Virus record (IMG/VR): IMGVR_UViG_3300044974_001280
Span: 1 to 64,000 of that record
Length of the DNA: 64,000 nt
DNA from: a virus
Strand: one strand, 5' to 3'
Under the pieces are notes generated by a model. That model saw nothing but the letters and a program-made list of their open reading frames with translations, did no database searches and was not told the origin of the DNA. Both the position numbers and the translations under genes were made by a program. This document shows, one piece after another, positions 1 to 57,048 of the stretch. How positions within the stretch are numbered: position 1 is the first letter of the stretch; each line of letters opens with the position of its first letter.

Positions 1-640
1 GGTTCGTCCGGAACCTCTGGTTCGAGTGGATCAAGTGGATCTTCCGGATCTTCGGGTTCTTCTGGATCCTCGGGCTCTTCGGGTTCATCTGGAACTAGAG
101 GGACTTCTGGAACCTCTGGTTCGAGTGGATCAAGTGGATCTTCTGGATCTTCGGGTTCCTCCGGAACAAGAGGAACTTCTGGAACCTCTGGTTCAAGTGG
201 CTCTTCTGGATCATCAGGCTCGTCTGGATCTTCGGGTTCTTCTGGAACATCCGGCTCGAGTGGTTCTTCTGGATCAAGTGGATCTTCGGGATCATCAGGG
301 TCTTCTGGTTCTTCTGGATCGTCAGGTTCTTCAGGAACCTCTGGTTCGAGTGGATCAAGTGGATCATCAGGATCCTCTGGCTCTTCTGGATCTTCGGGCT
401 CTTCAGGTTCATCTGGAACTAGAGGGACTTCTGGAACCTCTGGCTCTTCAGGATCTTCAGGCTCTTCAGGATCATCTGGCTCTTCAGGTTCCTCAGGATC
501 TTCAGGTTCCTCTGGAACTAGAGGGACTTCTGGAACCTCTGGCTCTTCAGGTTCATCTGGCTCTTCAGGGTCTTCAGGCTCTTCAGGTTCATCAGGAACC
601 TCTGGCTCCTCTGGAACCTCTGGTTCATCAGGAACCTCTG
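1..640 (+). repeat. Gly-Ser-Ser collagen-like triplet repeat
   Basis: This is a degenerate 9-base repeat encoding Gly-X-Y triplets, mostly GSS with interspersed GTS and GTR. Codon use varies among the Ser and Gly codons, so the amino acid pattern is conserved more strictly than the DNA. Phage fibres commonly carry collagen-like triple-helical shafts; here X and Y are Ser/Thr rather than Pro, giving a dense array of possible O-glycosylation sites. Confidence 0.85.
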
Positions 641-3600
641 GTGAATCTTTAACTATCAACGATAACATAGATAATTATGTTTTAACAGCAACGGGTTTAA
701 CTAATGTAATTCAAGGAGAATCCTTGTTAACATTTGATGGTTCACTACCATCTCCCTTTTTGAACGTAAATGGTGTACACGTTGGCCCAGGTGGTGGTAA
801 TTGTTCAACTAATATCGCTATTGGTGAGTGTTCTCTCTCAAGTAACACTACAGGAATTAAAAATGTTGCCGTCGGATTTGGAAGCCTTTATTCGAGTTCT
901 TTCGGAATTGCCAATGTTGCGGTAGGTTACACTGCCCTCTATAATTTTACATACCCTTCTGATTCTTCGACTGCTTCTTTGGCCGTTGGTTACAAAGCTC
1001 TTTGTTCTTCTACAAATGGTAGAAGTAACACTGCGGTTGGCACCAGATCTATGTTGTCAAATTCAACAGGAGAACGTAATACTGCTTTGGGGTCTGATTC
1101 CCTAATAAGTAACTTAACCGGGTGCTTTAACACAGCCGTAGGTTTTAAAAGTTTGTATAGCAACCTAGGAGGATCTGCTAATATAGCCATTGGTAATCAA
1201 TCTCAATATTCTAACATAAGCGGAAGCTCTAATGTTGCTATTGGCAATTCAGCTTTGTCTTCGAATGCCGGAAATGCTAATGTTGCTATCGGTCAATCCG
1301 CTTTATGCTCGCAGAATTTTGCCTCCGCCTCAAACACCGCCAATGTTGCAGTTGGATATTTTGCCATGGCCTTTAATACAACGGGAAGTGGTAACGTCGC
1401 CTTAGGTACCAGAGCTCTGTTGTGTAATACGACTGGAAATTTTAATACTGCGGTAGGAATCTCTGCTTTAGCAGCAAACAACACTGGTAAATACAACACA
1501 GCCTTGGGCAGATATTCTCTTCGGTGTAATACCTCAGGAAATTTCAATACAGCAGTAGGTTTAAATGCTCTTTTTGCTAACACAACAGGCGCAAGCAACA
1601 CCGCAGTAGGTATCAGTGCTCTTCGATGTAACACAATAGGCACATGCAACACCGCACTAGGTACATCTGCTCTTTATGATAACACAACAGGCTCAGACAA
1701 CACCGCAGTAGGTACAAATTCTCTTCGATTTAACACAACAGGCACAAACAACACCGCAGTAGGTACAAATTCTCTTCGATGTAACACAATAGGTATAAAC
1801 AACATCGCAGTAGGTTCAAGTGCTCTTTGTTTAAACACAACAGGCGTAAACAACACCGCAGTAGGTTATAATGCTCTTCGATGTAACACTTCTGGTTCTA
1901 GCAACACTGCAATAGGGACCAATTCTCTTTTGGTTAATGTAACCGGAAACTCCAACACAGCTCAAGGTTTTTATTCTCTAAGATCCAATACCACAGGGGG
2001 TAATAATACTGCAGTAGGAGCTAGCTCTCTTAGATGTAACATAACAGGAAAATATAACGTAGCAATTGGATCAGGTTCTCTTTGTTGTAATTTAACAACA
2101 AACGGGAGTGTTGCAATAGGTGTAAATGCTCTAAACTTAAACCTAGTTTCTTATAATACCGCCGTAGGTGCTTTTTCACAAAGGTGCACCTCTACAGGTA
2201 CGGAAAATGTTTCTGTAGGATCAAGCACTTTGTTCAATAACACGACTGGTTCAGGTAACACCGCAGTAGGTACAAATTCATTGTGTTCAAATGTATCCGG
2301 TTCAAACAACGTAGCAGTAGGTAGATCTTCTTTATTAACAAATACTACCGGCGGATTTAACACTGCTATTGGATTTGATGCATTAAGAAGTCAGAATTTT
2401 GGTTCAACCTCTACAACTGCCAATGTAGCAGTTGGTTATGGGGCGTTAAAAACAAATTCTACAGGCACAAATAATACAGCTATAGGTACACGTTCGCTGG
2501 AACAAAATGATGCTAATTTTAATACTGCGATAGGTGCATCCGCTCTTCGATGTAACACAACAGGAATACAAAATGTTGCTGTTGGGGCAGGTGTATTGCT
2601 TGTTAACACGGGAGGATGTAATAACTCTGCTGTGGGTTTCTATGCTCTAAGATCAAATACAACAGGAGCCCTTAACACCGCAGTAGGTCAACGTGCTCTT
2701 TATTGTAACACAACAGGCTTAAATAACACCGCAGTAGGTAGCTCTTCTTTATTAACAAATACTACCGGCGGATTTAACACTGCTATTGGATTCCATGCAT
2801 TAAGAAGTCAAAATTTTGGTTCAACCTCTACAACTGCCAATGTAGCAGTTGGTTACAGAGCTTTAACAGTTAATACCACTGGTTGTTGCAATACAGCCTT
2901 AGGTAATAGATCTTTTCAAGCTAATACAATTGGAAACACTAATGTGGCCGTAGGATCTGATAGTTTATTTTCCAGCGTTTCAGCTAACAATAATGTGGCA
3001 GTGGGTATCAATACCCTCCGTAGTAATCTATCGAACGGTAACTTGGTTGCCGTAGGAGCAAATGCCCTTTGTTGTAATTGTGCTGCTAATAATGTGGCCG
3101 TTGGAGCTTTTGCTATGAGATATACCACAACAGGAACAGGGGTAGCTATTGGGTTCCAGGCACTAAGAGATAATGTAACTGGTGCCAATAATGTTGCTAT
3201 CGGTGCTAACGCGATGCGAGATAACAAAGGAGCTAATAATAACGTAGCAGTTGGATATCAAGCTCTCTTTTGCACAACGGGTTCTTCGAACGTTGCACTT
3301 GGCTTTTGTTCTCTAAGAAATAACCAAATCGGGGTCCACAATGTAGGAATAGGCTGCAATGTACAACTTCAAAATATATCAGGAGATAGAAATATAGCTG
3401 TAGGTACACTATCTCTTTCTTGTAATACCACCGGTAACTCGAATGTGGCAATAGGCTATCAATCTTTAAGAAATTCAAACTTCGGTTCCATCTCCACTAC
3501 TGCCAACGTGGCCGTGGGTTACTGCTCATTGGCATGTAATTGTATCGGAAATTCTAATGTAGCAGTTGGAACGAGAACTCTTATTAGCAATCAAACAGGT

Positions 3601-34563: not shown

Positions 34564-34923
34564 ATGTCGAAGATCTATGTAACTAATCAAAATCTGATGG
34601 AGGCAATTCTTGAATCTAAAGAGAAGGGAGAATTAACACCAGCAGCCATAGAAATGTTCACTCTGATGATCTCGGGCATTTCTAAAAAAATGTCTTATAA
34701 GGATCCTGATGATAAAGATGATTGTATGGCTTTTGCCATGGAGGATCTTTGCAAATATTGGAATAGATTCGACCCAGAAAAATCCAACAATCCTTTTTCC
34801 TATTACACCCAAATAGCCAAAAATGGGTTTGCAAAAGGCTGGAAAAAAATACATCCCCCCAAATCACCTAAGACTATTCCTTTTTCTCACATCACGGGAG
34901 AAGATAATTCTTATAATGTGTAA
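34564..34923 (+). CDS. Late promoter sigma factor, T4 gp55-like
   Basis: This 119-residue protein aligns in pattern with T4 gp55 over residues ~25-97: MFTLMISGISKKMSYKDP, DDCMAFAMEDLCKYWNRFDP and NPFSYYTQIAKNGFAKGWKK (the sigma region 2-like part that recognises the late TATAAATA box). It is shorter than T4 gp55 (185); the C-terminal sliding-clamp-binding segment of gp55 is not evident. The GATATATA elements before structural genes are its likely targets. It overlaps the gp4-like gene by one base. Confidence 0.75.
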   Translation: MSKIYVTNQNLMEAILESKEKGELTPAAIEMFTLMISGISKKMSYKDPDDKDDCMAFAMEDLCKYWNRFDPEKSNNPFSYYTQIAKNGFAKGWKKIHPPKSPKTIPFSHITGEDNSYNV

Positions 34924-35506: not shown

Positions 35507-37111
35507 ATGGCAGGTTTTAGCGAGAATCCAAACACCAATCCAATCTTTCAGAAGATTAGGGATTCGGTTAAAAATCTGAGTAATTTCGGGATCCGATATG
35601 GTGACATGGTTGTCAAAAATTCTCAGGCTATTGGGGCCACTGAAGCTGAATTTTTGAAAAAAGGACCTATTGAGGATGAAACCACCTTCTTTTCTTTAGG
35701 TCGCCAAGACACAACCACCAGGCAGTATATTTCTTATTTTGATAAAGACTATGCGGGAAAAAGAGATTATCTGAGAAAATTCTCTTTGAACCCTGAGATA
35801 GAATACATTTTAGACACTGTCTGTGATGAATCTATTACTTACGATTCTTATAATTTCTTTGCCTATCCAGCTTTTCTGAACCTATCTAATCTTAAAAAGT
35901 CCGTTATCGATCGCATCGATTCGACTTATAAGAAACTGTATGACATGTTCGGTTTCAACGATGACATTTCGGCCTGGCAGTATTTCAGGCAAATGCTGGT
36001 GGATGGATTTATTGCCTTTGAGATTGTCTTTGATGATAGCGGCAGAAACATCATCGGATTTAAAGAGCTAGATGCCACGACCCTCATGCCTTCTGTGGAA
36101 AAACAGAAAGACGGAACTTTTTTGAATGTTTGGTATCAATACCCTAAAGATGAAAGAAAAAGAAGAATGTTGTACGACTCTCAGGTCATCTACATTTCTT
36201 ACGCCAAAGGCAATTCTATTTCTAGAGTTAGCTACACAGAAAGACTGATTAGACCTTACAATGTCTTGAGAATTATCGAATACACCAGAGTTATTTGGTC
36301 GGTCATGAATGCTTCTTTTAGGATGAAGATGACCATTCCGGTGGGATCTAGATCCCAACAGAAAGCAATGCAAACTCTGGGAGAATTGATGTCTATCTAC
36401 AAAGAGGACATCCAGTTTAACGACGAGAGTGGAGAACTTTCTGTTAACGGCCAACCCAAGATTCAGTTCTATAAGAACTATCTAATGCCCAAAGGAGCAG
36501 GAGGCACCCCTTCTATTGAGCCTCTAAACACGGCAGGCCCCAATCTGAATGATCCTGCCCCATTAGCCTATTTTTTCGATAAATTAGTGCAGGAATCAAA
36601 AATTCCTTTTTCCCGGTTTCAGGGGCCTGATGGCGGATCTATTGGAAAATACGCTAATGCTGCCGAAGGTTTAGATAAAGAAGAAATCAGATTCTCTAAA
36701 TTTATTATGAGGCTTAGATCTGTATTTCAGGATATCCTGGTTAAGCCTCTATGGATTCAAATCTGTAAAGATTTTCCCCAACTAGAAAAGGATTACACTT
36801 TTAAATCCCAATTAGGTCTAAGCTATGTTTCAGATAACCCCTTCCGGGTTAACCAGGAGATTGAAACCATTACGAAGAGAAAAGAATTTATAGATTCTCT
36901 TTATACCCTCACCGACGAGGAAGGAAATCCTTTCTTTTCTATCTCATATCTAGTGGAAAACTACATGGGTCTTACTGAGGATGATATAGCTTCTAATAAA
37001 AAAGCCAGAAGTGATAACAAATTAAAATCTGCTGAAGAAGCTGCGGCTGCCAGCGCATCTCCGCCAGCGGGCGAGTCCGAGCCAGAAGTAGCACCAGAAA
37101 CCCCAGTATAA
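35507..37111 (+). CDS. Portal protein (gp20-like), copy 1
   Basis: This 534-residue protein matches T4-like portals in length and motifs: MVVKNSQAIGATEAEF near 34-49, SLNPEIEYILDTVCDE near 94-109, GFKELDATTLMP near 184-195, SYAKGNSISRVSYTERLIRP near 236-255, and MRLRSVFQDILVKPLWIQIC near 401-420. The ring forms the head vertex and DNA channel. It has a late promoter 58 bases upstream and one of the few strong Shine-Dalgarno sequences here (aaaggaggaata). A second portal gene follows after 5 bases. Confidence 0.92.
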   Translation: MAGFSENPNTNPIFQKIRDSVKNLSNFGIRYGDMVVKNSQAIGATEAEFLKKGPIEDETTFFSLGRQDTTTRQYISYFDKDYAGKRDYLRKFSLNPEIEYILDTVCDESITYDSYNFFAYPAFLNLSNLKKSVIDRIDSTYKKLYDMFGFNDDISAWQYFRQMLVDGFIAFEIVFDDSGRNIIGFKELDATTLMPSVEKQKDGTFLNVWYQYPKDERKRRMLYDSQVIYISYAKGNSISRVSYTERLIRPYNVLRIIEYTRVIWSVMNASFRMKMTIPVGSRSQQKAMQTLGELMSIYKEDIQFNDESGELSVNGQPKIQFYKNYLMPKGAGGTPSIEPLNTAGPNLNDPAPLAYFFDKLVQESKIPFSRFQGPDGGSIGKYANAAEGLDKEEIRFSKFIMRLRSVFQDILVKPLWIQICKDFPQLEKDYTFKSQLGLSYVSDNPFRVNQEIETITKRKEFIDSLYTLTDEEGNPFFSISYLVENYMGLTEDDIASNKKARSDNKLKSAEEAAAASASPPAGESEPEVAPETPV

Positions 37112-37116
37112 TAGAC

Positions 37117-38742
37117 ATGGCAGGATTTTTAGATAATGCTCAGGAAAAATCTTTTTTGGGGGTTCTGTACAGAAACCTCGGAAAGATTAGTAAATTCGGG
37201 ATGCAATATGAAGATATGGTTATCCGTAATTCTCAGGCCATTGGTGCTACCGAATCGACCTTTTTTAACAATCAAGGCACTGGTTTTACCGAAAATGATG
37301 CCTTTTTCTGGACTTTAGGTTACCAGGATACCAGAATCAGAAAATACATCGCCTATTTTGATAAGGATTATCTTGGTAAAAGAGAATTCCTTCGCAAATT
37401 TGCTCTCAACGGAGAAATAGATTTCATTCTAGACACCGTTACTGATGATGCGATAAACTACGATGACAAGAATTTTTTCTGCTACCCCAGTTTGGTGAAT
37501 ATTGAGCTGAAAGACAACGTCAGGGAGAGAGTGGAAGAAAATTTTAGAACCTTATATAATCTTTTTGGCTTTCAACAAAGCATTCTGGCTTGGCAGTACT
37601 TCAAGCAGTTTTTGGTTGATGGTTTTTTGGCTTTTGAGATTGTTTATTCTACAGATGGCAAGAAAATAGTTGGATTCAAAGAACTAGACGCCACCTCACT
37701 TCAGCCGGCCACTGAAAAACAGCCCAACGGGGAATTCCAACAAATTTGGATCCAATATCCTCAGGACAACCGAATGACCAGAAAGCTGAAATCGGAACAG
37801 GTTATTTACTTGTCTTACGCCAAGGGCAATGCTGTCTCCAGAGTTAGCTACACAGAAAGGCTCATTCGTTCCTATAACATTTTAAGGGTGATGGAAAATA
37901 CGAGAGTTATTTGGAATGTCATGAATGCATCCTATCGACTGAAGTTCATTATCCCTGTTGGTACTCAATCCATGCAAAAAGGCATGCAGACTCTTGGTCA
38001 ATTGATGTCCCAGTACAAGGAGGAGATCCAGATCAACGACACTTCGGGGGAACTAACGGTCAATGGTGCACCCAGAGTCCAGTTTTATAAAAACTATCTG
38101 TTCCCTGAGAAGGACGGCGAATCTCCTGATATTAGCACACTCAACCCCAGCGGACCGGATTTTAACGTGATGGAAAATGTTGTTTATTTTTACAACAAAT
38201 TGAAGTTGGATTCTAAAATCCCTTACGCCAGGTTTTCAGCCAGATCCGGAACCCCTGCTAATTATCAGATTAGCATAGATCAGTTGGAGAGGGACGAAAT
38301 TCGATATGAAAAATTTGTAACTCGTCTGAGATCTGTTTTCCAGGAGATCCTAGTTAAACCTCTTTATATCCAAATGTGTCTAGATTTTCCTGTTTTGTCA
38401 AAGGATCGTACTTTTAAGGTAAATTTGGGTTTAGATTATGTGAAGGAAAATGTCTTCGAACAAATGATTCAGTTGTCCAACTATTCCAAGAGAGCATCTT
38501 TTATTTCCAGCATGGGTGAGATAAAAATGAAAGTGGGGGAAGAGGAATTACCCTATTTTGACAAAGAATGGCTTATCAAAAGATGGCTGGGTCTTAGTAT
38601 GGATGAATACAGGATGAACGAAAAGTACAAGAAGGAAGAGAAGGAAGAAGCAGATAAATTAAAGAAAGATCAAGAGAAAGAAGGAGAGAAGAAAGGAGAA
38701 GGGGGAGAGGGACAAGCAGAAACACCTAGTTTTACCCTATAA
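37117..38742 (+). CDS. Portal protein (gp20-like), copy 2
   Basis: This 541-residue full-length paralogue of copy 1 has RNSQAIGATESTFF near 38-51, GFKELDATSLQP, SYAKGNAVSRVSYTERLIRS, and TRLRSVFQEILVKPLYIQMC. The fold-defining regions are collinear throughout and neither copy shows frameshifts or missing blocks, so both are likely functional. The C-terminal 40 residues are a Lys/Glu/Gly-rich tail (EKEGEKKGEGGEGQ) unlike copy 1's Ala/Pro tail. It starts 5 bases after copy 1, so the two are co-expressed. Confidence 0.92.
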   Translation: MAGFLDNAQEKSFLGVLYRNLGKISKFGMQYEDMVIRNSQAIGATESTFFNNQGTGFTENDAFFWTLGYQDTRIRKYIAYFDKDYLGKREFLRKFALNGEIDFILDTVTDDAINYDDKNFFCYPSLVNIELKDNVRERVEENFRTLYNLFGFQQSILAWQYFKQFLVDGFLAFEIVYSTDGKKIVGFKELDATSLQPATEKQPNGEFQQIWIQYPQDNRMTRKLKSEQVIYLSYAKGNAVSRVSYTERLIRSYNILRVMENTRVIWNVMNASYRLKFIIPVGTQSMQKGMQTLGQLMSQYKEEIQINDTSGELTVNGAPRVQFYKNYLFPEKDGESPDISTLNPSGPDFNVMENVVYFYNKLKLDSKIPYARFSARSGTPANYQISIDQLERDEIRYEKFVTRLRSVFQEILVKPLYIQMCLDFPVLSKDRTFKVNLGLDYVKENVFEQMIQLSNYSKRASFISSMGEIKMKVGEEELPYFDKEWLIKRWLGLSMDEYRMNEKYKKEEKEEADKLKKDQEKEGEKKGEGGEGQAETPSFTL

Positions 38743-48183: not shown

Positions 48184-48888
48184 GTGGCCTACATTTCAGA
48201 TTTTGAAAATTTTCTTCTAGTTGAATCCGATTCAACTTCCCAGCCTGTTTTTAACGGGATCTGGGATCCTATGGTAGACGGAAAGGGAAAAAGACACTGG
48301 AGGTTGAATGTGTTAGTCTTATCCAAACTCAAAAAGATAGCAGAGGAGGCTCACGATCACTGCCGGGGGAATTTCCAAACTGAATTAAAGGATGTGGTTC
48401 TACTGTGTCCTGCTAATTTTACGAATTCCGAGGACGATCTGGATCTGGTTCTGCTCGTGGAAAAAAGAGGGAATTTAAAAAAAGGATCCAGATCAGAAAT
48501 GGAAGACCAAATGAACGAACATCTCTCTGACTACGTGGCTGAAAAAAACCCCCGTCTTAGAGGCAAAGAGGTGGAGATAGAAGCTTCTACATCCGATTAC
48601 TTTCCTAAAAGGCTAGGAGTTTATTCACTTTTTGACAACAAGTGGCTCCAATCACCTCCCTCTGATCAGGATTTAGATTTTGTGGGGGTATCAGTCAAAA
48701 AAATTATCGGAGCAATCAAAAAACTAGATTCTTCTTCTTTATCAGAGACCCCCCGAAAAAAAATTCAGAAAATATCCAGACAGATCCAGAGACTCAAAAG
48801 ATCCGGTCCAACTGGCATAGGGTCCTACAATCATCTGTTGTCGGGTGGATATATACACAAAATAATGGATCTCCTTTCCAAAAAATAA
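48184..48888 (+). CDS. Head-module protein with capsid-targeting-like N-terminus
   Basis: This 234-residue product starts with GTG directly after the terminator T-run. Its N-terminus AYISDFENFLLVES matches the amphipathic F-x-x-F motif shared by several genes here and includes an L-V-E potential prohead protease site at residues 12-14. Residues ~75-100 (NSEDDLDLVLLVEKRG) form an acidic beta hairpin that could belong to a nucleotidyltransferase-like fold, but without supporting motifs. It is a putative internal head protein. Confidence 0.55.
   Translation: MAYISDFENFLLVESDSTSQPVFNGIWDPMVDGKGKRHWRLNVLVLSKLKKIAEEAHDHCRGNFQTELKDVVLLCPANFTNSEDDLDLVLLVEKRGNLKKGSRSEMEDQMNEHLSDYVAEKNPRLRGKEVEIEASTSDYFPKRLGVYSLFDNKWLQSPPSDQDLDFVGVSVKKIIGAIKKLDSSSLSETPRKKIQKISRQIQRLKRSGPTGIGSYNHLLSGGYIHKIMDLLSKK
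48848..48855 (+). promoter_or_regulatory. Late promoter element (GATATATA) inside the 48184 gene
   Basis: This exact copy in the 3' end of the preceding coding region lies 40 bases before the ATG at 48896, giving the large internal protein its own late promoter. Confidence 0.55.
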
Positions 48889-51422: not shown

Positions 51423-51445
51423 TTAGAATAGATATATAATTCTAA
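51423..51445 (+). promoter_or_regulatory. Late promoter element in a 7-bp inverted repeat before the protease-scaffold gene
   Basis: TTAGAAT (51423-51429) and ATTCTAA (51439-51445) are perfect inverted repeats on either side of GATATATA (51431-51438). The ATG at 51463 is 24 bases beyond the promoter box. Confidence 0.7.
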
Positions 51446-51462: not shown

Positions 51463-53493
51463 ATGAGTCTAGGTCCTTTTGGAGAAGATATGGTTTTCAT
51501 TCTGGAAAAACAGAATCACCATGTTAATGTTTCGAAACAGAAAGTAGATGGGGACAATGTTTACACATTGAAAGGAATTGCTGCTCAATTTGGTAAAGAA
51601 AACAACAACAATAGAATCTACGAAGAAGCAGAATATCTACCCCATCTTGACTACTTGAACGAGAAAATCAAACAAAAAAGATTGGTTGGTGAACTAGATC
51701 ACCCCGAGAAATTTGATGTCTCTCTCAGAAACATTTCACACATCATCGAAAATCTCGAGTATGATAAAAACGGTCGGGTACTGAACATTAAAGTCAAGTT
51801 GCTTGATACTCCCGCAGGTCAGATTGCCAAGAAGCTGGTTGATGCCGGTGTTCCTCTTTCTATTTCTTCAAGAGCTGCTGGTAATGTGGGTCCGGATAAA
51901 AAGGTTCAGATCAAAAAGATCTTCACTTACGACCTAGTCGCAGATCCTGGTTTTCAAGACGCCCAATTAGAAAGAGTCTATGAAAGCGCGGGCTTTTCTT
52001 TTTCGGAATTCGCCGACAAGACTAAAAATTCCATTGTGAGCCATTTAGAGTGTATCAATGAATCTTTGGGTCTAAAAAATAACGATTCAGTAAAGATATA
52101 TAGAGTCGAAAATAACGAAGAATTCGAAAAAATATTCACAACAGAAAAAAATAACATCGATATTATGGAGTCACAAAAAAGAGAATTCGTTACGGCCGAA
52201 GAGCTCAACAAATATTCTATTTTTCTGAAAAAGAAAATGGAGGAAATGGAAATGCAAATTCAGGAGATGAAGAGCAGTTCACCACAGTCAAGCAATGCAT
52301 CTGAAAATGCTCAGCTGTTGGAGAGAATTGACCGTCTAGAAGAATATTCCGAATATCTAGCCGAAAATTTAGAGGATGCTATCAAATACGGCGAATATTT
52401 GGCTGAAAATTTGGACGACTCCATCAATTACAGCAAGTATCTGGCCGAGAGCCTGGATAAATCGATCTCTTACTCGAAGTATTTGGCCGAGAATGTAGAC
52501 AACTCTATTTCTTATTCAGAATACGTAGCAGAGAATGTGGATAGAACCATCAACTACTCGAAATATTTGGCAGAAAAGATCGACGATGGTATTCAGTACA
52601 GCGAGTATGTGGCTGAAAACCTAGGTAACAGTATTGCCTACTCTGAATATCTGGCCGAAAACGTCGACAGAGGAATTGCCTACTCTGAATATCTGGCCGA
52701 GAAGGTTGATAGGAACATTTCGTACTCTGAATATCTGGCCGAGTATATCGATAAAGACATCGCCTACTCTGAATATCTAGGAGAAAAAATAGATCAAGGT
52801 ATTTCTTACTCTGAATATCTGGCTGAAAAACTAGATCAGGGTATCTCTTATTCGGAATATCTGGCTGAAAATGTGAACAGGACTATCTCTTACTCTGAAT
52901 ACATTGCAGAAAAATTAAACGGCACAATTGAATTTGGTGAGGCACTATCAGAAAAAGTTGGTTATCCAACCCATCTGAATTCCAGAGCCAGATCAGAAGC
53001 AAATCTTGCCGCTAAAACTGAATTATTTGAATCAGGATTTGCCGGGGATTATAATAACCTCGGAAGTCAAATCGATTCATTAATCGAATCGGTCCAAACC
53101 CAAAAGACCGAATTAACCCGGGCCCAACTGGTTGGAAGGCCCTCTGCCCACACTCCAAAGGCAGAAGAGATGCTCAACGAGAATCAATCAGCCACCATTT
53201 CCTCCTCAGGTCATAAATTTATCGACGAAATGCCGGAAAATTATGCTCCAATTTGGGAATCTCTCAACGAAGGACAGAAGCAATCTATTATTGCTCAGTC
53301 CGCTTTCTATCGATTGGAGACACCTTATCAGATCAACAATTTCTGGTCTACTCGTAACTTGAGGAAAGAAACGGTGACTATGCAGAGACTCGATGAGAAT
53401 CAACAAACCCATGCTCTTCCCCAGTCGACGACTCGTGCTTATGGAAGTGATTACCTAAACTGGGTAGCTCAATCACTGGAGAAAAGATTCTAA
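51463..53493 (+). CDS. Prohead protease (gp21-like) fused to repeat-based scaffold
   Basis: This is a 676-residue protein. Residues ~30-165 are a gp21/S78-type prohead protease: GIAAQFGKENNNNRIYEEAE, VGELDHPEKF (catalytic His) and PLSISSRAAGNV (catalytic Ser). A coiled-coil linker follows. From residue 295 to 490 there are fourteen 14-residue repeats, consensus YSEYLAENVDxGIS, with a decayed fifteenth. The C-terminal ~150 residues are conserved-looking (SGHKFIDEMPENYAPIWESL). Each repeat has an (L/I/V)-x-E triad, the T4 prohead protease cleavage type. T4 encodes protease and scaffold (gp22) separately. The capsid gene follows after 26 bases. Confidence 0.85.
   Translation: MSLGPFGEDMVFILEKQNHHVNVSKQKVDGDNVYTLKGIAAQFGKENNNNRIYEEAEYLPHLDYLNEKIKQKRLVGELDHPEKFDVSLRNISHIIENLEYDKNGRVLNIKVKLLDTPAGQIAKKLVDAGVPLSISSRAAGNVGPDKKVQIKKIFTYDLVADPGFQDAQLERVYESAGFSFSEFADKTKNSIVSHLECINESLGLKNNDSVKIYRVENNEEFEKIFTTEKNNIDIMESQKREFVTAEELNKYSIFLKKKMEEMEMQIQEMKSSSPQSSNASENAQLLERIDRLEEYSEYLAENLEDAIKYGEYLAENLDDSINYSKYLAESLDKSISYSKYLAENVDNSISYSEYVAENVDRTINYSKYLAEKIDDGIQYSEYVAENLGNSIAYSEYLAENVDRGIAYSEYLAEKVDRNISYSEYLAEYIDKDIAYSEYLGEKIDQGISYSEYLAEKLDQGISYSEYLAENVNRTISYSEYIAEKLNGTIEFGEALSEKVGYPTHLNSRARSEANLAAKTELFESGFAGDYNNLGSQIDSLIESVQTQKTELTRAQLVGRPSAHTPKAEEMLNENQSATISSSGHKFIDEMPENYAPIWESLNEGQKQSIIAQSAFYRLETPYQINNFWSTRNLRKETVTMQRLDENQQTHALPQSTTRAYGSDYLNWVAQSLEKRF
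52095..52102 (+). promoter_or_regulatory. Internal late-promoter-like GATATATA inside the protease-scaffold gene
   Basis: This exact copy of the late element lies 62 bases before an in-frame ATG at 52165 (residue 235, MESQKREFVTAEELNKY). That position follows the protease domain and precedes the coiled coil and repeats. It could drive a scaffold-only product of about 442 residues. Chance occurrence in AT-rich coding DNA is possible. Confidence 0.45.
52345..52932 (+). repeat. Fourteen tandem 42-bp (14-residue) scaffold repeats
   Basis: The units encode YSEYLAExxDxxIx. Fourteen residues equals two heptads, consistent with a continuous helical or coiled-coil rod. DNA identity between units is moderate, highest in units 7-13 (gaatatctggccga recurs). 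Confidence 0.95.
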
Positions 53494-53519: not shown

Positions 53520-55241
53520 ATGAAACTAATTAACGAAGCCGAGATTTTTGATACCTGGGCACCTATTATTGAACAAAAAGCTGGTATCACTGATCCCTCA
53601 AAACAAACTTGGTTGGCAAAATATTGCCACTACCACTCCCTCAACGAGTCTGCCGGTGCATATCAGTCGTTGAATGTCGTCAACGGTATGGGTGCCGTTA
53701 CACCTCCTACCTTCCCAGCAGCAACAGCAGCCGGTTCTCTTGGCGGTCTAACTCCTAACCAAGGATTCTACAGCCAGTCTTGGCAAGGATCTGGCGATAA
53801 GTTCCCTTCACTTCTTCCTTTGGCTATTCAGGTAGCTGCGAAGACTGTAGGTTTCGACATCGTTCCAGTTATTCCAATGTCCGGTCCTTCTGGCGTTTTG
53901 TCCTACCTTGACTATGTGTATGCCGGTGGTAAGATCAGCCCGCAAAACGCCGGAACTACAGCTGCCGAGGCTTTGGCAAATGCTCCTACAATGATCAAAT
54001 TGCAAATCACTACCCAGACGAACATGTCTTTACTAGAGGTAGGACCAAATACACCAGGTACAGATTATTACATCTCCAACGCCAGTGCTTCAGCTACTGA
54101 ATACATCACTGCTAGGTTTGTAGGCTACTCTAGAATTGATGGATTTCCAATTTTTGAAATCACAGCAATGACCGCAGGTGAAACTGTTGCCTCCGTTCTT
54201 AGCGGAGGTGCTTTCATTGGTACTACAATTGCCGGAGATGAAGTTGGTAGTACCACAGCTACTGCTTCTCTGGTTAAGGCTCTAGAGGATCACATTCAGG
54301 GTTTCTCTGGTGCAGGTTTTTATGACGATCAGAATTGGCAAGGTCCCTTCACCGATGGCACACAGACTTACAATCCGATGCTAAGAAGTGTAGGTGAAGA
54401 AAACTACTACAATTTGATGGGTCTAACGACTTTCACTAAGTTCGTAGAAGCCGACACCTTCCAGGTAGCCGCTTCCGTTACCACGGAGCAAATCCAGGAT
54501 CTCAACAAGCAATTCGGAATCGATGTTATCTCAATGATCGAAAACGCATTGGTGAATGAGGTTTCTCAGGCTATCAACAAGCACATCTTGTCAAGGGCAT
54601 TTGCTTTAGGATGGTCTAACACCTATGCTTTCTTCCAAACAGAAGCACAGAATTTGAACTTGAGCCTAGTATTGGGTGGTGCAACAGGAACTACCCTTGC
54701 CTATGTTACTAAAACTGACGGAACCCAATCAATGTCTATCCCAGCCGGGCCTGCTAATGGAGGTTACGAGAATTTGTCAACTCTACAGAGAAGGCTTTTC
54801 TCCCGGATCTTGGCAGCTGCCAACATGGTAGCTAACAGAGGTAGAAGAGGTCCTGCTAACTTCATTGTTACCAACGCTAATTTGGCTTCGGCAATGCAGG
54901 ACATCAGCCAATTCACTTTCGCTCCTTTCACTAACACCTTGACTCAGAACAATGGTACTCTGTATCCAGTAGGTTCTTTGGCAGGTATGACTGTCTACGT
55001 CGATCAAAACATGAGATTCTCCGATAACCGTATCCTAGTCGGTAGAAAAGGTGGAGACGACGAGCCAGGTCTAAAATTCATGCCTTACATGATGGCTGAA
55101 TCTATCCAGACTATCTCCGAGGGAACTATGTCTCCTAAAATCGCGGTCAAGTCTCGTTACGCTCTAGTAGAAGCTGGTTTCCACCCAGAAACCATGTATG
55201 CTACTTTCTTCGTACAAGTTCCGGTTGGAGGTATCAACTAA
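53520..55241 (+). CDS. Major capsid protein (gp23-like)
   Basis: This 573-residue protein matches T4-like gp23. The N-terminal arm MKLINEAEIFDTWAPIIEQ resembles the T4 gp23 start, and GDKFPSLLPLAIQVAAKTVG then FDIVPVIPMSGPSG open the HK97-type core. The C-terminal ALVEAGFHPETMYATFFVQV is also typical. A likely maturation site is HSLNE/SAGAY after residue 43 (L-x-E type), comparable to T4 cleavage after residue 65. Codon use and richer GC near the middle are as expected for a highly expressed gene. A strong terminator follows. Confidence 0.95.
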   Translation: MKLINEAEIFDTWAPIIEQKAGITDPSKQTWLAKYCHYHSLNESAGAYQSLNVVNGMGAVTPPTFPAATAAGSLGGLTPNQGFYSQSWQGSGDKFPSLLPLAIQVAAKTVGFDIVPVIPMSGPSGVLSYLDYVYAGGKISPQNAGTTAAEALANAPTMIKLQITTQTNMSLLEVGPNTPGTDYYISNASASATEYITARFVGYSRIDGFPIFEITAMTAGETVASVLSGGAFIGTTIAGDEVGSTTATASLVKALEDHIQGFSGAGFYDDQNWQGPFTDGTQTYNPMLRSVGEENYYNLMGLTTFTKFVEADTFQVAASVTTEQIQDLNKQFGIDVISMIENALVNEVSQAINKHILSRAFALGWSNTYAFFQTEAQNLNLSLVLGGATGTTLAYVTKTDGTQSMSIPAGPANGGYENLSTLQRRLFSRILAAANMVANRGRRGPANFIVTNANLASAMQDISQFTFAPFTNTLTQNNGTLYPVGSLAGMTVYVDQNMRFSDNRILVGRKGGDDEPGLKFMPYMMAESIQTISEGTMSPKIAVKSRYALVEAGFHPETMYATFFVQVPVGGIN

Positions 55242-56103: not shown

Positions 56104-57048
56104 ATGTTGTACACATTCGAACAATGGGATCAAAACCTAAAACATAAAACCGGATCGGTCGAAGAGAGTGTTTCCCTTCAGGGGATTCTGAAGTGGTTTT
56201 CAAACACTTTTGGCGGGGACAAAAATAAAATCGATCTGCTCATTTCGGATCTCCAGGAGATAGAATACAAATTTGCCGAAGAATGGAATGAGATTCAGGT
56301 GGATATCGACGAACTAGAAGTACAGAAAGCTCAGATCAAAAACGACCCAGCCGAAATTAGAAAACTAGAAAGGTTAATCGAAAGAAACGATAGATTGTTG
56401 GATGCCTTAACCAAAAAGAAAAGAACTGCAATCTCAGAAATAGAAAGCAAAATAGAAAAAATAACCGACAAGAAACCAAAATTGGTTTCTTATTGGAATT
56501 TGCAGAAAACCAAAGCCGAGGCAGAAATAGCAGAAAATTTGTATCAATTGGCTAAAAAATTATCCAGGGAAGAAGTAGCAGAAGAACTTTACTCCAAGTA
56601 CAAAGAAGCTTCTCTCAGGGCAAAAAAGAAAGACGAGGAATTTAAAAGAAAATTTGGAAACCTAAAAATGCCATCAGGCCTAAAAACAAGAGTACCTAAA
56701 GAAGACAAAGAAACCTCTAAAAGAACTTCAGTGCCGGCAGAAATCTCCCACAAGTACACTGCGGAGTTTGAAGAATCGATGGATTTTCCTCCCCTCGAGT
56801 TCGATCGTTATGTTAAGGGACTAGATAAGAAGGTAGTTCAGCAGCTCAAGAAATATTTAATTGAGCAAAGGAATGAAAGGTATGTCTTGATCGATAGTAG
56901 AGAAGCCAAAGTCAGCGAGATGAAAAAAACTATGAGTGCCGTAGAGGCCAAAGAAATCCAAGCCAGATTCATAGAATTCAGGAAATCTACCATGGAGCAG
57001 ATCCGTCAGCTTCGCACAAAAATAACTATTTGCAATAGATATGATTAA
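56104..57048 (+). CDS. Coiled-coil head-associated protein (paralogue of 55360)
   Basis: This 314-residue protein starts MLYTFEQWDQNLKHKTG, again an aromatic-rich amphipathic start. It shares with the preceding gene the FSNTFGGDKNKID-type segment and the ENLYQLAKKLS helix, and is largely coiled coil (residues 40-190). A C-terminal helical domain (residues ~215-310) is absent from its paralogue. It overlaps the next small gene by 8 bases. It is a putative internal head protein; no enzyme motif is seen. Confidence 0.55.
   Translation: MLYTFEQWDQNLKHKTGSVEESVSLQGILKWFSNTFGGDKNKIDLLISDLQEIEYKFAEEWNEIQVDIDELEVQKAQIKNDPAEIRKLERLIERNDRLLDALTKKKRTAISEIESKIEKITDKKPKLVSYWNLQKTKAEAEIAENLYQLAKKLSREEVAEELYSKYKEASLRAKKKDEEFKRKFGNLKMPSGLKTRVPKEDKETSKRTSVPAEISHKYTAEFEESMDFPPLEFDRYVKGLDKKVVQQLKKYLIEQRNERYVLIDSREAKVSEMKKTMSAVEAKEIQARFIEFRKSTMEQIRQLRTKITICNRYD

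Follow-up and report, generated by a model that had tools for sequence, protein, structure and literature searches.

A T4-type prohead protease fused to a repeat-rich scaffold region, with a putative scaffold gene nested in frame

Protease and scaffold genes in described systems

T4 proheads contain about 100 copies of the protease gp21 and 576 copies of the scaffold gp22 (PMC5694885), and gp21 cleaves after the motif L/I-x-E (PMC9026906). Genes 21 and 22 are separate in T4, P-HM1, 121Q and Paride. In T4, GTTATAAATA holds the gene 21 stop codon as well as a perfect late promoter, TATAAATA, about 30 nt before gene 22, and TATAAATA likewise lies between genes 21 and 22 of P-HM1 and 121Q. As at the locus described here, the T4 prohead protease gene contains a second start, that of the short form gp21s (T4 record; PMC9026906); it lies near the N-terminus and gives a shorter protease, whereas the internal start reported below would give free scaffold.

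Nested protease/scaffold genes are already known in lambda, Mu and the herpesviruses, in the last with an internal promoter; for T4-type protease genes, the open-access literature searched yielded no description of either a nested gene or an internal promoter. The lambda protease C is of the S49 rather than the S77 type. In lambda C/Nu3 and in Mu, as here, the scaffold is begun in frame inside the protease gene: an in-frame scaffold start has been described in Mu and a putative one in PaMx73 (PMC4378225), and lambda C and Nu3 are mentioned as overlapping in PMC8508860 (its ref 43). In what they say of these genes, the lambda and Mu papers describe internal translation starts only and no internal promoter, whereas here a promoter-like element is present too. 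The herpesvirus pair UL26/UL26.5 shares with our locus the in-frame overlap, the identical 3' ends and a release site between protease and scaffold, and UL26.5 is credited in PMC4498786 (its refs 5, 6) with its own promoter inside the outer UL26 ORF. A predicted-fold search related the assemblin fold to that of the protease here; the herpesviruses differ in cellular setting, in cleavage specificity and in having an unrelated scaffold, and the element at our locus is a phage late-promoter-like site.

The fusion gene, its protease domain and its relatives

The analysed window, a stretch of 64,000 nt, belongs to a 230-kb IMG/VR record (IMGVR_UViG_3300044974_001280). It contains an ORF whose translation carries GELDHP (His80) and SISSRA (Ser135) and which ends shortly before a capsid gene (the arrow marks predicted cuts here and below):

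51463–53493, + strand: full-length protease-scaffold fusion, 676 aa (ORF list and translation), a single open frame in 68 non-redundant relatives
51490–51972, + strand: gp21/S77-type prohead protease domain, residues 10–170 (Pfam, PHROG, alignment with T4 gp21, fold match to 5jbl)
51700–51702, + strand: His80
51865–51867, + strand: Ser135
52054–52065, + strand: INE↓S, predicted protease cleavage (release) site at the protease/scaffold junction; 67 of 68 relatives have [VILMS]NE[SAQ] here
53520–55241, + strand: gp23-type major capsid protein (Pfam Gp23, 2e-39), without an element of its own in the promoter survey; predicted cleavage at ...SLNE↓SAG, with the LNE conserved

By sequence comparison, the first 226 residues are a head maturation protease of the T4 gp21/Peptidase S77 type. 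Residues 35–143 matched Pfam Peptidase_S77 (PF03420, E 4e-8, 33.5 bits with a curated cut-off of 27) and residues 12–226 matched phrog_207, head maturation protease (E 1e-37). His80 and Ser135 are unchanged in an alignment with the T4 gp21, 121Q, P-HM1 and Paride proteases and are also invariant among 43 relatives, and the top PDB match of the predicted fold was T4 gp21 (5jbl, E 3e-9), followed by herpesvirus assemblins including pUL26N. The first-pass annotation had read this ORF as a gp21-type protease (GELDHP, SISSRA) continued in frame by fourteen repeats that act as scaffold; ORF, Pfam/PHROG and fold agree with the former, and the repeat region does occupy the place of gp22, in frame with the protease and directly 5' of a gp23-type capsid gene.

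The locus shares with T4 genes 21/22 the protease family and fold, the position before gene 23, an LxE-rich helical scaffold and a late promoter (here a late-promoter-like element) 5' of the scaffold start. It differs in that T4 has two separate genes with the promoter overlapping the gene 21 stop, whereas here the frame is open through the promoter. T4 gp22 also lacks a 14-residue repeat and has no detectable homology to the scaffold region here; hhalign of the repeat region and C-terminus against the T4, 121Q, P-HM1 and Paride gp22 gave probabilities under 2%. From the T4-like order of protease, late promoter, scaffold start and capsid gene, we infer that the fusion may have arisen from a T4-like layout once the frame opened through the promoter.

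The first tblastn matches were the huge phages LR756500–LR756504 and LR745206 (462–735 kb), followed by Lak phages and numerous T4-like phages; a query restricted to the scaffold part matched six huge-phage records only. Two IMG/VR scans gave 86 loci, and the comparison set comprised 68 non-redundant relatives, which share ancestry and so do not provide phylogenetically independent counts. Protease and scaffold form one open frame in all 68. Groups A, B, C and D were defined by sequence resemblance and differ from one another at about 60% of residues; in the protease tree, A, B and D are each a single group and C is not. A fully supported branch parts fused from unfused proteins in this tree, in which some branches are very long. 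The fusion, presented at first as undescribed in T4-like phages, is therefore not peculiar to one phage: besides these relatives, protease and scaffold are fused in the annotated isolates MA9V-2 (1207 aa), pT24 (527 aa) and MaF61 (1404 aa) and in Lak phages, and lambda, Mu and the herpesviruses have protease-scaffold genes too. The fusions of these isolates and of the Lak phages likewise have a gp21-type protease in frame with a long C-terminal region rich in NE sites, but unlike the present one they lack YSEYLAE repeats. In phage pT24 (L099), CATATATAAT occurs at about nt 546 of the fusion gene, in the post-protease linker, and resembles the internal promoter-like element described below; no conserved Met lies close after it.

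An internal start codon and a late-promoter-like element

The linker that follows the protease contains a second set of candidate signals, listed here together with the element before the ORF and the sigma factor gene:

51431–51438, + strand: GATATATA, late-promoter-like, 24 nt 5' of the ATG of the full-length gene
52095–52102, + strand: internal GATATATA, late-promoter-like, within the codons of K-I-Y and 62 nt before the internal ATG; kept in 29/29 group A and D genes
52141–52164, + strand: adenine-rich candidate translation initiation region of the internal start (A at -14/-15, context score, synonymous conservation)
52165–53493, + strand: putative nested in-frame gene for the scaffold alone, 442 aa, from Met235 (ATG 52165); Met in 68/68 relatives within a hypervariable linker
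34564–34923, + strand: gp55-like late sigma factor, likely reader of GATATATA (phrog_234 late sigma factor, 1e-14; phmmer with T4 gp55, 2e-6)

Met235 is unchanged in every relative, although its neighbours vary and the linker between protease and helical scaffold evolves fast, differing in length and sequence from group to group. Linker residues 228–243, which include Met235, are disordered in the AlphaFold2 model (pLDDT under 50). The conserved 'VT' downstream of Met235 mostly lies 4–9 residues away and the conserved Ile-Tyr upstream 11–30 residues away; in contrast with its neighbours, the Met column ranks within the top dozen of the alignment but is not the highest.

The sequence before the internal ATG resembles that of genuine starts. 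Adenine occupies -14 in all 68 relatives and -15 in 96% of them, the stretch from -24 to -10 is A-rich, and the A content of the 24 bases before the ATG is 58%, close to that of the main starts (60%) and above that of other in-frame ATGs (40%). This matches the adenine motif that Bacteroidota starts have at -14 to -11; in Flavobacterium, adenines at these positions promote initiation without Shine-Dalgarno pairing (PMC6847099). No Shine-Dalgarno sequence precedes the internal ATG, and the other genes here likewise lack one. A start-context matrix built from 440 other gene starts in these loci ranked the internal ATG first among the in-frame Mets of its gene in 51 of 68 cases (with about nine others per gene, chance is about 1 in 10), and only 3% of other in-frame Mets scored above its median. 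Over the eight codons before the ATG, the share of pairs with identical synonymous codons was 87% in group A, 57% in B, 89% in C and 85% in D, compared with 50–60% over the whole region, and adenines near the start numbered 13.8 where amino acids and codon usage predict 12.5. RNA structure at the window's internal start was not unusual (z 0.57); across relatives, about 80% of the gene is more structured than this region. The interval from internal promoter to ATG is free of ATG in 24 of 29 genes and free of ATG, GTG and TTG in only 9 of 29, a weak signal. Met235 therefore appears, from its conservation and context, to be an internal start codon with initiation signals.

The window holds 15 copies of the element GATATATA (1.0 expected), all of them on the coding strand, and the 230-kb record holds 47, mostly 4–70 nt 5' of gene starts. 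Because of this placement and enrichment before genes, and because the window encodes a gp55-like sigma factor, GATATATA is very probably a late promoter, the counterpart of T4 TATAAATA. The sigma factor gene is short (119 aa, with the match spanning profile positions 8–110 of 181) and its product may be truncated or minimal. Across 183 kb, GATATATA was found in no other ORF body. Its internal copy lies 59–71 nt 5' of the internal ATG in all 29 genes of the window's two clades (A and D), and the Ile codon within it is ATA in all 29, with ATA making up 22% of Ile codons. As a counterpoint, group C keeps the Ile-Tyr of this place in its protein sequence, as a predicted strand, with codons that vary.

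The canonical internal element is missing from group B and most of group C, where the scaffold would need internal initiation on the long mRNA or a variant element. A possible variant in group B is GGATATATGA, which stands at the place of the internal promoter and in which two rare codons are fixed: AGG (16% of Arg codons) and ATA (17% of Ile codons). Two group C relatives on different tree branches (L057 and L058) carry GATATATA exactly 26 nt 5' of the internal ATG, in unrelated linker residues; these count as independent cases of an internal promoter-like element. In groups A and D the capsid gene begins 8–33 nt past the scaffold. The promoter survey found no element of the capsid gene's own in any of 26 A and D genes and found one in 12 of 14 group B genes, which suggests that the internal promoter of the window's clades probably drives scaffold and capsid protein together.

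Several further features concern head genes. In three group C loci (L055, L058, L059), genes with a capsid-targeting-like N-terminus (MKHVKLFEQF...LNE) lie between the fusion and capsid genes. Many genes have short F..F...LNE/LVE N-termini, several right after GATATATA (examples are at 57041, 125449, 128800, 141865, 161302 and 165306 of the G000 record and at 48184 of the window); these resemble T4 capsid-targeting sequences and suggest a large set of internal head proteins, and a regular-expression search for such N-termini gave a weak enrichment (14.6% versus 10.7%). Two tandem genes of the window, at 35507–37111 and 37117–38742, each match phrog_213, the portal family of T4-type phages (E about 5e-59 for both), an unusual duplication for a dodecameric, single-vertex protein. 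On the minus strand of G000 (147039–149936), three adjacent paralogues have MKHLQSFSLFEARKTS(D/G)LTQKQKTF in common at the N-terminus, and a near-identical sequence, GATATATAAGG(G)CGTG, lies upstream of each. A low-complexity array of 9/18/81-bp units (window 1–641) and a 51-bp tandem repeat (1545–1930) probably encode fibre-type repeat proteins.

Repeats, cleavage motifs and the proposed working of the locus

The scaffold portion of the ORF has two recognizable parts:

52345–52932, + strand: fourteen 14-residue repeats YSEYLAENLDxxIx (repeat chain and conservation), a single long alpha-helix in the AlphaFold2 prediction
53215–53361, + strand: C-terminal helical scaffold domain, residues 585–633, MPENYAPIWESLNEGQKQSI...FWSTRNL, conserved, pLDDT about 85

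The repeat units run consecutively from Tyr295, with a degenerate fifteenth unit after the fourteenth. Sequence comparison indicates that the repeat is real and old, since relatives have about 8–16 units, the DNA copies are only about 75% alike and Glu7 is 97–100% conserved (over 736 units; 100% in group A, 99% in B and D, 97% in C). Glu7 exceeds every other repeat position in conservation in three groups and ties with Tyr4 in the fourth, group B; it is preceded by L/V/I at -2 and A/G/S at -1. Unit number is near-constant within groups (13 in 14 of 17 A genes, 15 in 7 of 10 D genes) and shows no trend with genome size, with about 11–13 units in 635–735-kb phages and 13–14 in the window's group. 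LR756500 (L004) keeps the 14-residue period and has lost many of the Glu. AlphaFold2 predicted long continuous helices at residues 279–398 and 406–498 with modest confidence (pLDDT about 40–70), and P591, W598, F627, W628 and R631 of the C-terminal domain are invariant in the alignment of relatives.

The first-pass annotation had further proposed that the protease digests its own scaffold at a motif in every repeat. [LIV]-[AG]-E is indeed present in all fourteen units and fits the published gp21 motif, although the repeats have one common origin and the fourteen motifs are thus not fourteen independent observations. The strict 14-residue spacing of the motifs is unusual, but their abundance is ordinary for T4-type scaffolds: LxE occurs 23 times in the 442 aa here (8.5 in shuffles), 16 times in the 269 aa of T4 gp22 and 24 times in the 371 aa of 121Q gp22, so that the density equals that of T4 and only the spacing stands out. 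The most conserved repeat residue is the P1 Glu, as self-digestion would predict, and this conservation, together with the L/I-x-E rule, supports the digestion idea more than expected. Against cutting in the repeats, the capsid-gene sites of the clades compared are nearly all LNE, INE or MNE, mostly LNE↓S, INE↓N or MNE. The conserved NE↓S and LNE↓S sites of the fusion and the capsid protein are only consistent with proteolysis after L/I-x-E. The (V/I/L)NE↓S that lies after the protease and ahead of the internal Met resembles a release site, and cutting there and at the LAE motifs of the helical rod is plausible; for the repeats themselves, we lean slightly towards cutting.

Taken as a whole, the locus is most probably the counterpart of T4 genes 21 and 22 joined into one ORF, within which a scaffold gene is nested in frame. 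The late promoter 5' of the ORF would give a long mRNA and few copies of the 676-aa protease-scaffold, while the internal late promoter (52095) and start codon (52165) would give many copies of the 442-aa scaffold alone, from a transcript that probably also feeds the downstream capsid gene. The scaffold portions of both products may assemble together by way of the long helix of repeats and the C-terminal domain, so that the fusion would take protease along into the prohead in small numbers relative to scaffold. After closure of the shell, the protease would free itself at (V/I/L)NE↓S and cut the scaffold at LxE motifs, the ones in the repeats probably among them, and the short peptides would leave the head and make room for DNA. 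Given the numbers of gp21 and gp22 in T4, an obligate one-to-one fusion would be a problem, which nesting would solve.

The original reading of the locus took the fusion product as the whole story and missed the internal promoter and start. That only the full-length protein is made and that its protease digests the repeats to 14-residue peptides, with no nested product, would agree with the continuous frame in all relatives, the conservation of Glu7 and the cleavage rule of T4 gp21. It is nevertheless improbable, as it leaves unexplained the invariant linker Met, its start-like context, the frozen synonymous codons and the embedded promoter-like element, and would force protease and scaffold into a one-to-one ratio as against about 100 to 576 in T4. 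Still less probable is that the internal ATG and promoter are unused relics of an ancestral separate gene 22. Such an ancestral origin is itself likely, given the late promoter between genes 21 and 22 in T4, P-HM1 and 121Q, but unused relics would have decayed, whereas here the Met persists and synonymous sites are constrained despite the divergence between groups, and L057 and L058 carry new promoters at another place.

A closer competitor accepts both the fusion and the nested scaffold but takes the repeats as an uncut rod or ruler, in which Glu7 serves helix packing and cleavage is confined to the NE↓S and LNE sites outside the repeats. The nearly fixed unit number within groups, the one long helix predicted by AlphaFold2, the prevailing capsid-gene sites and the relative that keeps the period while losing many Glu all fit a rod. 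Glu7, however, is at least as conserved as the Tyr positions in every group, which exceeds the usual needs of packing, and T4 gp22 is also helical yet is cut into fragments. We regard an uncut rod as possible but would not bet on it, and still prefer the nested scaffold gene with cutting that probably extends into the repeats.

Scaffold in excess over protease is a common need of tailed phages and herpesviruses, which lambda and Mu meet with a translation start inside the protease gene, the herpesviruses with an inner gene that has a promoter of its own, and T4 with two genes. The present lineage suggests passage between these states: the promoter of T4 gene 22 already overlaps the gene 21 stop, and with an open frame it would simply be translated. 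It is conceivable, if somewhat short of an even chance, that a T4-type lineage including 735-kb huge phages has converged on the UL26/UL26.5 layout, with a late promoter and start embedded in the linker, equal 14-residue cassettes each ending in a site of their own protease, and a head interior cleared as uniform 14-mers. For the huge phages the locus provides a concrete scaffold candidate, and for their annotation it means that a second, abundant head protein may be being overlooked in a whole clade.
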